Source: Clostridia bacterium (GTDB lineage Bacteria > Bacillota > Clostridia > Peptostreptococcales > Anaerovoracaceae). From it: a stretch of 64,000 bases of DNA. Each line of letters opens with the position of its first letter. Positions within the stretch are counted from its first letter, which is position 1. The DNA lies in the NCBI GenBank assembly GCA_024403115.1, contig JAKSSL010000005.1:1-64000 (forward strand). Direction: 5' to 3'. Positions 56,035-60,847 of this stretch are shown here, piece after piece. The notes below the pieces were generated by a model. That model saw nothing but the letters and a program-made list of their open reading frames with translations. It was not told the DNA's origin and did no database searches. Both the position numbers and the translations under genes were made by a program.

Positions 56035-56973
56035 CTATTCTATTAAATCTTCTTCTTCGTGGGTTTCAACTAATACATCATCGCTTGAATCTGTTTCGGA
56101 AATAATGATTGAAACAGCAACGAGAACTGAACCGATAACTCCAAGAGTTCCCAAGCGATCACCTAGGAATACTGCACTGGTAATTCCACCAAGAACAGGT
56201 TCCAGTGTAAGTATAAGGGAAGCCTTATTGGAGCTGACTCTTGCCATACCATATGTTTGACATACAAAAGCAATGGCTGAGCATCCAATTCCAGTAAATA
56301 TCATTGATGCGATTTCTAAAGTGCTGAAATCATATGATAAAGCTACCGATATTTCACCGTTTGCAATCATACCTATAAGTGAGTATACAACGAATAGGGC
56401 AGATTCTAACATGGAAAATGCGATAGGGTCAAAGCTTGCTGATTTTCTTCCTAGCCCGATAGTATATGCCGAGCCGAAGATGGATGCAGACAAGCAAATC
56501 AGGTCTCCACCAGAAAAACCTATATCGGCATTTCCTCCACCTATGGAAATTAGATAAACTCCAATTACACAGATGATAATGGCTATGCTTAGTTTTAGGT
56601 TTGGAATAATTCTAAACAGAATTAAATTGATCAGTGGCACGCCTATAGCACCTAAACAGGTGAAGAATGAGGCTCTAGCACTTGTAGTATACTCCATACC
56701 TATAGTGGTAAGAGCATAGCAACCATATAGGAAAATACTGATAATAACAGTATCCTTGATCATTTGTTTGTTGATTAATTTAATGTGTTTTCTGAAAATG
56801 ATTGCCAATAGTAAGGCGGATATTAGAAAACGCCAAAAATTAATGTAGAAGGGCGGTATATTTCCCAAAACTTTTAAAGCAGGAAATCCAAAGCCCCAAA
56901 ATGTTGCCGTACATAGCAGTGCCAAAACACCTAGAACTTTTTGATTTGTGTTTTTGAATTTATTGGTATTCAT
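56035..56973 (-). CDS. EamA-family (DMT superfamily) transporter
   Basis: 312 residues, ten membrane helices in two EamA repeats (ATFWGFGFPALKVLG near the start; SNKASLILTLEPVLGGITSAVFLGD in the second). The ATG at 56973 is chosen with GGAGAG about ten bases upstream; the in-frame TTG at 56991 overlaps that site. DMT members export amino acids or metabolites; the substrate here cannot be told. The acidic C-terminus is unremarkable. Divergent from the B12 locus. Confidence 0.88.
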   Translation of the reverse strand: MNTNKFKNTNQKVLGVLALLCTATFWGFGFPALKVLGNIPPFYINFWRFLISALLLAIIFRKHIKLINKQMIKDTVIISIFLYGCYALTTIGMEYTTSARASFFTCLGAIGVPLINLILFRIIPNLKLSIAIIICVIGVYLISIGGGNADIGFSGGDLICLSASIFGSAYTIGLGRKSASFDPIAFSMLESALFVVYSLIGMIANGEISVALSYDFSTLEIASMIFTGIGCSAIAFVCQTYGMARVSSNKASLILTLEPVLGGITSAVFLGDRLGTLGVIGSVLVAVSIIISETDSSDDVLVETHEEEDLIE

Positions 56974-56995
56974 AGTATATACACTCTCCAATTAC

Positions 56996-57023: not shown

Positions 57024-57052
57024 TTGCATAAATAGACTTCCTATGATACAAT
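57024..57052 (+). promoter_or_regulatory. Promoter of the first cobalamin riboswitch unit
   Basis: TTGCAT (57024-57029), 17-bp spacer, extended TGATACAAT (-10 at 57047-57052). It lies about 20 bases before the aptamer. Confidence 0.72.
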
Positions 57053-57073
57053 AATTAAAAATAAATAGATATC

Positions 57074-57317
57074 TTGCAGGTGCTTTATGCATAACAGGGA
57101 AGTGAGGTGTAATTCCTCCACAGAGCCGCTGCTGTAATAGAGGAGCTTTGGCAAATATGTCACTGGGAAACCGGGAAGACTGTCAAAGCGTTGATACTTG
57201 AGTCAGAAGACCTACCTAAGAGATTGTTCAAAGAGTTATTGCGGGCATTCGATAACAGAACGAAATATATGTGTATAAGTATAACTCCTTGAATTTTAGT
57301 ATTTACGGAGTTTTTTT
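57074..57317 (+). promoter_or_regulatory. Cobalamin (B12) riboswitch upstream of the ECF S component
   Basis: Aptamer about 57074-57221 with the B12 box AGCCGCTGCTGTAAT, the GGTGTAATTCCTCCACAGAG core, CACTGGGAAACCGGGAAG and AGTCAGAAGACCT. A P13 hairpin GTTAT/ATAAC (57235-57239, 57252-57256) shows loop bases GCGG complementary to CCGC (57126-57129) of L5, the kissing pair. Antiterminator GAGTTAT (57233-57239) with ATAACTC (57281-57287) competes with terminator AACTCC/GGAGTT (57283-57288, 57307-57312) plus T run. The 3' terminator arm is also the Shine-Dalgarno GGAG of the gene. Predicted OFF switch. Confidence 0.93.
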
Positions 57318-57318
57318 A

Positions 57319-57831
57319 ATGGATTTAAAAAGCGTAAACAATAAAATAAGTGTTACCGAAATCGCAGAGCTTGCTTTGATGTGCGCATTGATGGTCATAG
57401 GCAAGGAAGCTTTAAGGATGATACCAAATGTGCATCCTGTCGCTTTGATAATTATGCTTTGTGTTATACGCTATGGTTGGAAGACCATTTATCCAGTAAT
57501 CGGTTTTGTTATTTTGCAAATTGCTCTATATGGCTTTGGAATATGGACAATAATGTATTTCTATGTTTGGCCAATTCTGGTTGCTGTTACTATGCCTTTT
57601 AGACATAGCAATAATAGATGGGTATTTGCAATTATTGCATCTTTGCATGGTTTTACATTTGGAGCATTTTGTTCCATACCGTATATATTTACAAGCGGGT
57701 GGACGGCCGCGGTAGCTTACTGGGTAGCCGGTTTGTCATTTGATGCTATTCACGGGGTATCAAATTTCATTATCGTATTATTGTTGCTACCACCCCTTCG
57801 CAACAAGCTGAATAAAATAAGTATACGTTAA
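57319..57831 (+). CDS. ECF transporter S component, probably cobalamin-specific
   Basis: 170 residues, five to six membrane helices, no ATPase domain. Start ATG at 57319 with GGAG eight bases before it; a longer frame to 57271 would run through the riboswitch terminator. Reads as an S component (PF12822-like), which binds a vitamin and uses a shared EcfA/A'/T module encoded elsewhere. Cobalamin specificity is inferred from the B12 riboswitch directly upstream and the transcobalamin-like genes downstream; CblT/CbrT-type families are the candidates. Confidence 0.8.
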   Translation: MDLKSVNNKISVTEIAELALMCALMVIGKEALRMIPNVHPVALIIMLCVIRYGWKTIYPVIGFVILQIALYGFGIWTIMYFYVWPILVAVTMPFRHSNNRWVFAIIASLHGFTFGAFCSIPYIFTSGWTAAVAYWVAGLSFDAIHGVSNFIIVLLLLPPLRNKLNKISIR

Positions 57832-57840
57832 CACTGGGTG

Positions 57841-57868
57841 AAAAGTATTTAATACTTTTTAATATAAT
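57841..57868 (+). other. Hairpin and possible -10 between S component and second riboswitch
   Basis: AAAAGTATT/AATACTTTT with a two-base loop (57841-57860), then a T-rich stretch and TATAAT at 57863-57868. It could be a terminator plus a separate promoter for the second unit; no convincing -35 was found, so read-through is equally possible. Confidence 0.4.
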
Positions 57869-57881
57869 TTAATATTTTCTC

Positions 57882-58137
57882 ATAAGGTGCTCCTAATTGA
57901 GCTTAATAGAGAAGAGAGGTGCAATTCCTCCACAGAGCCGCTGCTGTAATAGCATTGCTTTTAAACATATGCCACTGGTATAACTGGGAAGGCGTTTAAA
58001 AGCAACATGCTTAAGTCAGAAGAACTGCCTATGAGAAGTTCAAAGAGTTATTGCGGGCATTCGATAACAGAACGAATTACTAAAACTATTTTAGTTAGCA
58101 ATAACTCCTTGATTCAAATGAAGAAAGGAGTTTTTTT
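57882..58137 (+). promoter_or_regulatory. Second cobalamin (B12) riboswitch
   Basis: Aptamer about 57882-58034 with GAGAGGTGCAATTCCTCCAC, the same B12 box AGCCGCTGCTGTAAT, GCCACTGG, ACTGGGAAGGCG and AGTCAGAAGAACTGCC. The 39 bases 58038-58076 are identical to 57226-57264 of the first switch (P13 element). Antiterminator GAGTTATTGC (58045-58054) with GCAATAACTC (58098-58107), 10 bp, competes with terminator AACTCCTT/AAGGAGTT (58103-58110, 58125-58132) plus seven T. The AAGGAG arm is the ribosome binding site. Predicted OFF switch. Confidence 0.93.
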
Positions 58138-58138
58138 A

Positions 58139-58780
58139 ATGTTTAAAAAATCCAAATCCGCCATTATCTTGGTTTTATTGTTAATCTTCTCGTGCTGTGC
58201 TTGTGGCAATGAGATCGACGATAAGGTAAGCGATTCTCAAACAGAAGTAAGCGTACAAGAACAGGTGGAAGAGACAAAGGAAAAGAAGGAAATCGATGAC
58301 AAGATTCAAGCTGATGACAAGGATGTAAAAGACCAAGAAGAAAAGCTTGAAGAAAAGTCTGAGACTAAACAAGAGGATCAAGAAAAGACTGAGACTAAGT
58401 CCAAGGAAAAGAAGTCCAAGTCCGATTCCAAGGAAAAGAAAAAGGACAAAGAGTCTGACAAAAAATCCGACAAGAAGGACACTTTTACTTGCACAATTAG
58501 TGTAGAAGGACATTGCCAGAATAAGACTTTGGAAGTAACAAAAAATACCAGCGTATATGATGCTTTGAAAAAATCTGGAGCAAAAATTGAAGCTGAAGAA
58601 ACCATGTTTGGTATCTATGTGGTTGGCATTAATGGTCTTAGAGAAGGCGACAAAGGTGGCGGAAGCGGATGGACCTATAGGGTCAATGGGGAATTAGTTA
58701 TGGACAGTGCCGACGATGTGACAGTGAAAAAAGGGGATAAGATCTCATGGGAATTTGTTACAGGCGGCATGGTATTTTAG
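58139..58780 (+). CDS. Lipoprotein with DUF4430 (transcobalamin beta-domain-like) module
   Basis: 213 residues from ATG 58139. Lipoprotein signal with CCAC and lipidated Cys22. Residues about 25-115 are an extreme Lys/Glu/Asp/Ser-rich linker (no hydrophobic core), a spacer to cross the wall. Residues about 117-213 are a DUF4430 domain: VTKNTSVYDALKKSG, then GSGWTYRVNGELVMD, then VKKGDKISWEFV, the pattern of the C-terminal beta domain of transcobalamin and intrinsic factor. I infer cobalamin binding at the cell surface, supported by the riboswitch just upstream. The next gene follows 11 bases later. Confidence 0.83.
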   Translation: MFKKSKSAIILVLLLIFSCCACGNEIDDKVSDSQTEVSVQEQVEETKEKKEIDDKIQADDKDVKDQEEKLEEKSETKQEDQEKTETKSKEKKSKSDSKEKKKDKESDKKSDKKDTFTCTISVEGHCQNKTLEVTKNTSVYDALKKSGAKIEAEETMFGIYVVGINGLREGDKGGGSGWTYRVNGELVMDSADDVTVKKGDKISWEFVTGGMVF

Positions 58781-58791
58781 AAAGGATCAAT

Positions 58792-60294
58792 ATGAAAAGA
58801 AAAAGCATATCACTTATTCTTGCTTTTGCCCTAGTGTTTACAAGCATGGGCAGCATGGCATTTGCTAAGAACGTATACAGTGATGTTTTTGAAAATGCTA
58901 AAGCAAGTTCTATGACATACTTGCAAGAAAAATTGCAAGGTTTTTGTGAAAAGTCAGGTGGCGGTCTTAACGGTTCATTCTATGCAATGGATTTAGCTAA
59001 GGCTGGAGCAAAACCTGATAGAGCATATTATGAAAAATTAGCTCAAGAAGTAATAGACGGCAATGGCGGTCTAGAAAAAGGTAAAACAAGTTATACTAAT
59101 AACGATAAGGGAATCCTAGCTTTTACAGCAGGAGGCTATGATGCCACAAATATTTGCGGATACAATCTGGTAGCAAAACTTGCTGATTATGATGCAATTG
59201 TGGCGCAAGGAATTAATGGACCTGTTTATGCTTTGATGGCTTTAGACAGCGGAAACTATGAAATTCCTAAAGCTCCAGAAGGTGTGACACAAGCAAGCAG
59301 AGAGAATCTTGTTAAGGCAATCTTGGATGGAAGAATTGCTGAAAATGGCTTATGGGCATATGGAAAGGCAACTGATCCCGATGTGGATATGACATCTATG
59401 GTATTGGTGGCTTTGGCTCCATATGTAGCTGATAAGGAAGTTAAAGCCGCAGTTGATAATGGAATCAAATTCCTATCAGAAAACATGGGTGAAACTGGCG
59501 CATACTCATCATGGGGAAGTGCAAATAGTAACTCTACAGCTGTTGCTATTTGGGCCATATGTGCAAACGGAATCAATCCTGACAAAGACAAGAGATTTAT
59601 CGATAATCACGTTTCAGTTTTGGATGGCTTGCTAAGCTTCGCTGTTGAAACAGGCGGATTTGGTTATACAAATAACAAGACAATTAATCAAGCTGGAACT
59701 CAACAATCTTATGAAGCTCTTTTAGCTTTTGAAGCATTGGAAAGAGGCGATCGCAGATTCTATGATATGAGCGACAAAGCTCCTTTAAAAGCTTTTAAAG
59801 TAAGTGGACTAACTCTAAATGCTAGTGCAACTTACACAGGCAAAGCTATTTGCCCAAAAATTACAGTTAAGGATGCTTTTGGAAACAAACTTACAGAAGG
59901 GGTTGATTATACAGTAAAGTATAGCAATAACAAGAATGTGGGCTTGGCAAAAGCGAGTGTTGAAGGAAAGGGGTATTACAGCGGCAAACTTTCCAAGACA
60001 TTTAAGATTCTTCCTGTAAAAGCAAAGATTTCTTATGTAAAAGCCAAGAAGAAAGCTTTTGTAGTAAAGACTGCGAAGACAAAGAATATTACAGGATACC
60101 AAATTAAGTATGCGAAAAATAGCAAGTTTACTAAAGCAAAATCAAAGTTTGTAAAATCAAGCAAAGCTATTACCAAGAAGATTAGTGCTTCAGGCAAAAC
60201 AAAATATTTTGTTAAGATCAGAACATATAAGACAGTGGGTAAGACAAAGTACTACTCAGCCTGGTCAAAGGTTTACAAGATAAAGACTAAGTAA
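58792..60294 (+). CDS. Secreted alpha/alpha-barrel protein resembling transcobalamin alpha domain
   Basis: 500 residues from ATG 58792 behind AAAGGA. Signal peptide cleaved near AFA (residue 25). Residues about 35-325 are repeated helix pairs like prenyltransferase/squalene-cyclase barrels, with GLNGSFYAMDLAKAG, GPVYALMALDSG, DPDVDMTSMVLVALAPYV (195-212), STAVAIWAICANGI and QQSYEALLAFEAL. The DVDMTSM segment recalls VDTAAM of human transcobalamin. Residues 334-415 are an MBG-like beta domain (TYTGKAICPKITVKD) and 420-500 an FN3-like, very Lys-rich tail. Co-transcribed with the DUF4430 lipoprotein; probably the other half of a cobalamin receptor. Confidence 0.78.
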   Translation: MKRKSISLILAFALVFTSMGSMAFAKNVYSDVFENAKASSMTYLQEKLQGFCEKSGGGLNGSFYAMDLAKAGAKPDRAYYEKLAQEVIDGNGGLEKGKTSYTNNDKGILAFTAGGYDATNICGYNLVAKLADYDAIVAQGINGPVYALMALDSGNYEIPKAPEGVTQASRENLVKAILDGRIAENGLWAYGKATDPDVDMTSMVLVALAPYVADKEVKAAVDNGIKFLSENMGETGAYSSWGSANSNSTAVAIWAICANGINPDKDKRFIDNHVSVLDGLLSFAVETGGFGYTNNKTINQAGTQQSYEALLAFEALERGDRRFYDMSDKAPLKAFKVSGLTLNASATYTGKAICPKITVKDAFGNKLTEGVDYTVKYSNNKNVGLAKASVEGKGYYSGKLSKTFKILPVKAKISYVKAKKKAFVVKTAKTKNITGYQIKYAKNSKFTKAKSKFVKSSKAITKKISASGKTKYFVKIRTYKTVGKTKYYSAWSKVYKIKTK

Positions 60295-60387: not shown

Positions 60388-60415
60388 TTAAATATCAAAG
60401 AAAGGAATGATATCT

Positions 60416-60847
60416 ATGAAAAATTTTGCACAAGAATTTAAAGAATTCATATTAAAAGGTAACATTATCGATATGGCTGTAGGCGTTGTAATAGGCGGTG
60501 CTTTTGGTAAAATTGTTACATCATTGGTAGATGATATTATCGCACCACTAATCAGTCTGTTAACAGGAAAGATTGCTCTTGCAGACTTGAAATGGGTAAT
60601 TTCACCTGAGACTGCTGAACACGGTGAAACAGCTTTGACTTATGGTAATTTTATTCAAAGTATAATTGATTTTCTAATCATTGCACTTTGCATTTTCATT
60701 GTATTGAAGCTTATTATGAAGGCTGAAAAGAAGATTGAAGAGGCAAAGGCTAAGAAAGCTGAGCCAGTTGAAGAGGCAGCTGCTGAACCTAGCGAGCTTG
60801 ATGTATTGAAGGAAATCAGAGATCTACTTCAAAAGGAAGACAAATAG
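60416..60847 (+). CDS. mscL: Large-conductance mechanosensitive channel
   Basis: 143 residues from ATG 60416, giving MKNFAQEFKEFILKGNIIDM, the usual MscL N-terminus; the ATG three codons earlier is inside the AAAGGA site. The pore helix VGVVIGGAFGKIVTSLVDD, second membrane helix (about 80-102) and acidic/basic C-terminal bundle are present. Homopentameric emergency valve opened by membrane tension. Confidence 0.96.
   Translation: MKNFAQEFKEFILKGNIIDMAVGVVIGGAFGKIVTSLVDDIIAPLISLLTGKIALADLKWVISPETAEHGETALTYGNFIQSIIDFLIIALCIFIVLKLIMKAEKKIEEAKAKKAEPVEEAAAEPSELDVLKEIRDLLQKEDK

Follow-up and report, generated by a model that had tools for sequence, protein, structure and literature searches.

The capture of vitamin B12 before its import is poorly known in Gram-positive bacteria. 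The closest description is that of Burroughs et al. 2007 (PMC1796856), in which the SLBB superfamily of beta-grasp domains was defined with a clade including the C-terminal domain of transcobalamin. Fusions of such domains to toroids and operons with CbiO and CbiQ were reported in low-GC Gram-positive bacteria without B12 synthesis; cell-surface B12 scavenging was predicted, and transfer to animals was proposed. Neither riboswitches nor lipoproteins nor a split toroid/SLBB pair appear in the main text of that paper. For the import step, the accessible part of the report on the energy-coupling factor (ECF) transporter ECF-CbrT of Lactobacillus delbrueckii (PMC5997447) describes the cluster nrdJ-cbrS-cbrT-pduO, attributes high-affinity uptake to ECF-CbrT itself and mentions no surface binding protein. 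Here, a locus at positions 57024-60294 of a 64,000-nucleotide stretch of DNA from a Clostridia bacterium (assembly GCA_024403115.1, contig JAKSSL010000005.1, positions 1 to 64,000; the whole stretch is hereafter called the window) was analyzed. It carries two cobalamin riboswitches, encodes an ECF S component related to CbrT, a lipoprotein with a DUF4430 domain and a secreted protein of the alpha/alpha-toroid type, and is probably a B12 (cobamide) scavenging system that is repressed by B12, captures the vitamin at the cell surface and hands it over to CbrT.

The cmscan analysis of the window detected two RF00174 aptamers on the plus strand, at 57061-57233 (89.5 bits, E = 8e-21) and 57868-58045 (93.4 bits, E = 6e-22), both above the gathering score of 31.5 bits and each with an expression platform. 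These are the only two RF00174 matches in the 1.08-Mb genome, which is 97% complete. Sequence inspection and folding placed the first platform at 57233-57317, with the antiterminator arm GAGTTAT, a P13 hairpin and a terminator (AACTCC...GGAGTTTTTTT, 57283-57317) whose folding energy is -9.1 kcal/mol and whose 3' arm includes the Shine-Dalgarno sequence of the CbrT-like gene. The second platform (58045-58137) consists of an antiterminator (58045-58107, -15.5 kcal/mol), a P13 hairpin and a terminator (58103-58137, -12.2 kcal/mol) overlapping the Shine-Dalgarno sequence. In both leaders, the 5' arm of the terminator can alternatively pair with GAGTTAT of the P13 region, and the Shine-Dalgarno sequence stands just before the ATG. 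The two leaders look like tandem copies, as 210 of the 280 columns are identical when they are aligned over their whole length. This layout is that of a predicted OFF switch acting at the level of transcription, and probably on translation as well.

The first leader is followed by an open reading frame (ORF) at 57271-57831 on the plus strand, with the best start at ATG 57319, which encodes a membrane protein of 170 amino acids. Its sole sequence relative in the PDB by phmmer is CbrT of ECF-CbrT (6fnp, E = 6e-17), which specifies the ECF S component recognized in a preliminary description made from the DNA alone. The protein can be assigned to the CbrT family, and cobalamin transport is predicted for it. 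The host genome encodes one CbiQ/EcfT protein, adjoining two ECF ATPases, and this single ECF module fits a shared (group II) module that serves CbrT.

The second leader precedes a gene at 58139-58780 (plus strand) for a lipoprotein with a transcobalamin-like beta-grasp domain. The protein consists of a signal peptide whose lipobox (IFSC) is imperfect, a stalk encoded at 58205-58492 and a DUF4430 domain at 58550-58759, which matches PF14478 at E = 1e-15 (58.3 bits; cut-off 23.8). The stalk, previously described as charged and about 90 residues long, measures 96 residues, is rich in K, E and D, and has an isoelectric point (pI) of 4.8. The single-sequence search of this protein against the PDB gave no useful match. 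The DUF4430 profile weakly recovered transcobalamin-1, transcobalamin-2 and intrinsic factor over their beta domains (4kki, E = 0.04; 5no0, E = 0.7; 2pmv, E = 0.7). The top PDB match of the same profile was 3u7z (RUMGNA_00854, E = 0.008), which is labelled 'putative metal binding' and may itself be a corrinoid-uptake protein.

The toroid gene (58792-60294, plus strand; alternative start 58747) begins 11 bp past the stop codon of the DUF4430 gene, so that what look like the two halves of a transcobalamin-like protein are encoded separately, as had been proposed. Its product consists of a signal peptide (58792-58866), a toroid domain (approximately 58867-59775) and a basic tail (approximately 59797-60291). 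The toroid domain was modelled by AlphaFold2 from an alignment of 39 relatives as an alpha/alpha toroid with a predicted local distance difference test score (pLDDT) of 92.6 and a predicted template modelling score (pTM) of 0.91; the secreted alpha/alpha barrel that had been expected was thus obtained, and not a different fold. The Foldseek search of this model against the PDB ranked rat transcobalamin third, with more transcobalamin entries among the best matches, interleaved with farnesyltransferases or prenyltransferases and terpene cyclases. The VIA-align superposition on transcobalamin 8ixt, a comparison suggested in the preliminary description, gave a Z-score of 18.3 with a root-mean-square deviation (rmsd) of 3.4 A over 253 residues, while other toroids scored higher. 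Because the transcobalamins are interleaved with enzymes and the cyclases score higher, the toroid fold fits a B12 carrier but cannot by itself identify the function.

These matches bear on the explanation that the toroid is an enzyme resembling terpene cyclases, glycosidases or lyases, linked to B12 incidentally. The best VIA-align Z-scores belong to terpene cyclases and sugar epimerases and the best sequence-profile matches to squalene-hopene cyclases. The single-sequence search of the toroid protein against the PDB gave no useful match. However, the cyclase motif DxDD is not found in the toroid, whose residues 197-200 (DVDM) align with DVDD of squalene-hopene cyclase. A signal peptide is present, and the association with DUF4430 and B12 riboswitches is seen repeatedly in different genomes, as described below, which makes an enzyme highly improbable. 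The lysine-rich character of the tail was evident from its composition (41 K in 165 amino acids, pI 10.3), but the MBG/FN3-like modules once assigned to it were not confirmed by Pfam, in which only Ig_Rha78A was matched at E = 0.05. The tail module was also found in other proteins of the host genome, indicating a general surface module rather than a part of the B12 device. A second toroid is encoded in the host genome at L128:6952-7755 (minus strand; contig C1 of G000) as a small lipoprotein of 267 amino acids, with no adjoining DUF4430 or riboswitch and no Pfam match.

Proteins in which both domains are naturally joined were surveyed in 299 genomes of the phylum Bacillota with a fusion profile at a threshold of E = 1e-25 or better. 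Matches were found in 56 of the 299 genomes, about 45 of which have a single match spanning both domains. Among 41 fused genes from 40 genomes, an RF00174 match on the same strand was located within 5 kb upstream of at least 27 and within 1.5 kb of at least 20; in five genomes (G165, G284, G181, G263 and G156), the only RF00174 match of the genome sits just 5' of the fusion. No toroid-DUF4430 fusion was found on plasmids. The profile was built from fusions only; an alignment that combined fused with single-domain sequences had been rejected because it misaligned the last barrel helix with DUF4430.

The fusion of genome G052, which lies at L114:9985-11271 on the minus strand, directly 3' of a 135-bit cobalamin riboswitch, consists of a toroid, a short linker, DUF4430 and S-layer-homology domains. 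It was modelled by AlphaFold2 with a pLDDT of 85.4 and a pTM of 0.69, the linker reaching a pLDDT of about 30. The fold search of this model against the PDB returned haptocorrin, transcobalamin or intrinsic factor for all of the top 15 matches, with both domains aligned at E = 3e-10 to 1e-7; the next matches were prenyltransferases at E = 7e-6 with fewer columns aligned. The fusion sequence profile, in contrast to the fold search, found terpene cyclases and prenyltransferases in the PDB and not the animal carriers. Since Bacillota often carry such natural fusions preceded by B12 riboswitches, the toroid and DUF4430 domains look like homologues of the alpha domain and the beta domain, respectively, of transcobalamin and intrinsic factor. 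The resemblance to intrinsic factor that had been pointed out was thus retained, and its description as a mere functional analogy was replaced by one of likely homology.

Similar linkage was observed in a survey of 61 related genomes, where 57 of the 104 DUF4430 matches lie within 10 kb of RF00174, against an expectation of about 2.4 given the density of riboswitches. Of the 35 toroid matches, 32 have a DUF4430 match no more than 5 kb away, cases in the same ORF included. The association of DUF4430, barrel protein and B12 riboswitches sought in the preliminary description is therefore not confined to the window. The separate toroid and DUF4430 genes recur as an operon in about 12 genomes (for example L089, L093-L098, L100-L103 and L105), in most cases accompanied by genes for EcfT, an EcfA fusion and an S component. 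CbrT, at E = 1e-21, is the only confident PDB match of the S components encoded in these operons. In the sister species (L089), two cobalamin-class riboswitches are present, the second of which is immediately 5' of DUF4430 and the toroid. The first of them stands 5' of a secreted protein of 183 amino acids without a Pfam match (L089:7767-8318, minus strand), possibly a further part of the B12 system. Giant surface proteins at L115:9535-18501 and L120:3539-15286 carry six toroid domains in tandem followed by DUF4430 domains.

On plasmids of Lactococcus and Enterococcus, DUF4430 is grouped with a cobalamin adenosyltransferase, a B12-dependent ribonucleotide reductase and CbrT, and no toroid is annotated. 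This package was seen in Lactococcus cremoris and Enterococcus durans (L151 and L152) with no RF00174 match. Such linkage bears on whether the ligand captured is a related tetrapyrrole or a corrinoid other than cobalamin (cobinamide, other cobamides), B12 serving as regulator only. Cobinamide is also transported by CbrT (PMC5997447), and a reviewer of Burroughs et al. 2007 cautioned that more than one ligand may be bound within the clade (PMC1796856). The riboswitch control and the linkage to adenosyltransferase and B12 enzymes nevertheless indicate cobamides, and this alternative is considered improbable.

The host appears to require an external corrinoid. It encodes lysine 5,6-aminomutase (KamE equivalog and KamD), an enzyme dependent on adenosylcobalamin (AdoCbl). 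No tetrapyrrole methylase (TP_methylase) of any kind was found in its genome by a search that was positive in 14 of 14 control genomes, and the host is therefore not expected to make the corrin ring. The PF01923 adenosyltransferase, the one such family searched for, was not found either; as the aminomutase needs AdoCbl, this implies that the host either has an adenosyltransferase of another family or takes up AdoCbl.

The scavenging system would operate as follows. At low cellular B12, transcription would pass both riboswitches. The first would then allow synthesis of CbrT, which would dock on the single shared EcfA1A2T module of the genome, and the second that of the membrane-anchored DUF4430 protein on its long flexible stalk together with the secreted toroid protein, which may be retained at the wall by its basic tail. 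In the most likely arrangement, a single corrinoid would be held at the cell surface with the toroid on one side and DUF4430 on the other, a two-domain sandwich that we infer from the animal carriers; B12 binding by either protein and their joint closure on one ligand are predicted. The held corrinoid would be delivered to CbrT for ATP-driven import, and the imported cobamide would serve lysine 5,6-aminomutase in a host without sign of corrin synthesis. A more specific version, in which the locus encodes a split transcobalamin with the corrinoid held between the wall-held toroid and the stalked lipoprotein until the sandwich is opened, and the vitamin delivered, by docking of the lipoprotein on CbrT, is put forward tentatively, at somewhat less than even weight. 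If it is true, the functions of carrier and receptor, which reside on different molecules in animals, are united in one bacterial locus.

Several observations weigh against capture by the pair of proteins. Terpene cyclases outscore transcobalamin on the toroid fold (VIA-align Z-score of 22 versus 18.3), and the toroid protein matches neither PF01122 nor any other Pfam family above the cut-off, with PF01122 matched by 4 of its 39 relatives (best E = 3e-4). The toroid carries W63F, E247N, Q251V and H292Y at positions conserved in 90% of relatives, residue 292 being close to the domain end. The domain orientation in the G052 fusion model differs from that of transcobalamin (rmsd of 16-17 A over both domains), as expected from the disordered linker and the lack of a ligand. 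No riboswitch is detectable at several of the operons that combine toroid, DUF4430 and ECF genes. In three genomes (G042, G053 and G060; L107-L109), a riboswitch is followed by DUF4430 and CbrT without a toroid, indicating that the toroid is not always needed; the S components encoded directly 3' of these DUF4430 genes are 32-35% identical to that of the window. Proteins with three DUF4430 domains are located between the cobalamin riboswitch and the CbrT-like gene at L107:4715-5779 and L109:5159-6226, where no toroid is present.

The latter arrangements suggest that the DUF4430 lipoprotein alone might capture B12 and pass it to CbrT without any sandwich, the toroid being a secondary or degenerating partner or one for another ligand. 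The clusters of RF00174, one or three copies of DUF4430 and CbrT, the toroid-free annotation of the lactic acid bacterial plasmids and the conserved residues lost in the window toroid all fit this explanation. It remains unlikely in view of the 11 bp that separate the toroid gene from the DUF4430 gene 5' of it, the proximity of nearly all toroid matches to DUF4430, often in one chain, and the contacts made to B12 by both domains of transcobalamin (PMC1796856). Surface capture with hand-over to CbrT is accordingly the preferred reading of the locus. The flanking genes, for a DMT transporter (56035-56991, minus strand) and MscL (60407-60847), are unrelated to it.

The core idea of bacterial B12 catchers was already published by Burroughs et al. 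2007. The literature searched, which includes few subscription journals, held no closer account of a bacterial transcobalamin with riboswitches and no experimental study of how DUF4430 proteins act in B12 uptake by bacteria. The locus and the riboswitch-driven fusions provide concrete targets for testing whether transcobalamin and intrinsic factor of animals derive from Gram-positive B12 scavengers, as proposed in 2007, and they are relevant to competition for B12 within host-associated communities. The window locus shares with the 2007 clade a DUF4430-type domain, a toroid partner, an ECF context, a host without sign of B12 synthesis and a predicted role in scavenging B12 at the surface, whereas that clade was described as toroid-SLBB fusions, in a paper that predates CbrT. 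The animal transcobalamin, intrinsic factor and haptocorrin (PF01122 plus beta domain) have both folds, in the same domain order as the bacterial fusions, but are single chains, whereas the window has two genes and a toroid without PF01122, and the bacterial proteins look surface-anchored. ECF-CbrT of Lactobacillus delbrueckii (PMC5997447, 6fnp) has the same S component family and a single shared ECF module. BtuG of Bacteroidetes (PMC6143338) is likewise a lipoprotein of the cell surface, captures B12 on behalf of an importer and is encoded in B12 transport loci, but it belongs to an outer-membrane envelope and is described as confined to Bacteroidetes. Compared with the 2007 proposal, the riboswitch control, the CbrT partner, the two-gene form, the structural support and the prevalence are new here, and the genomic support is much stronger.

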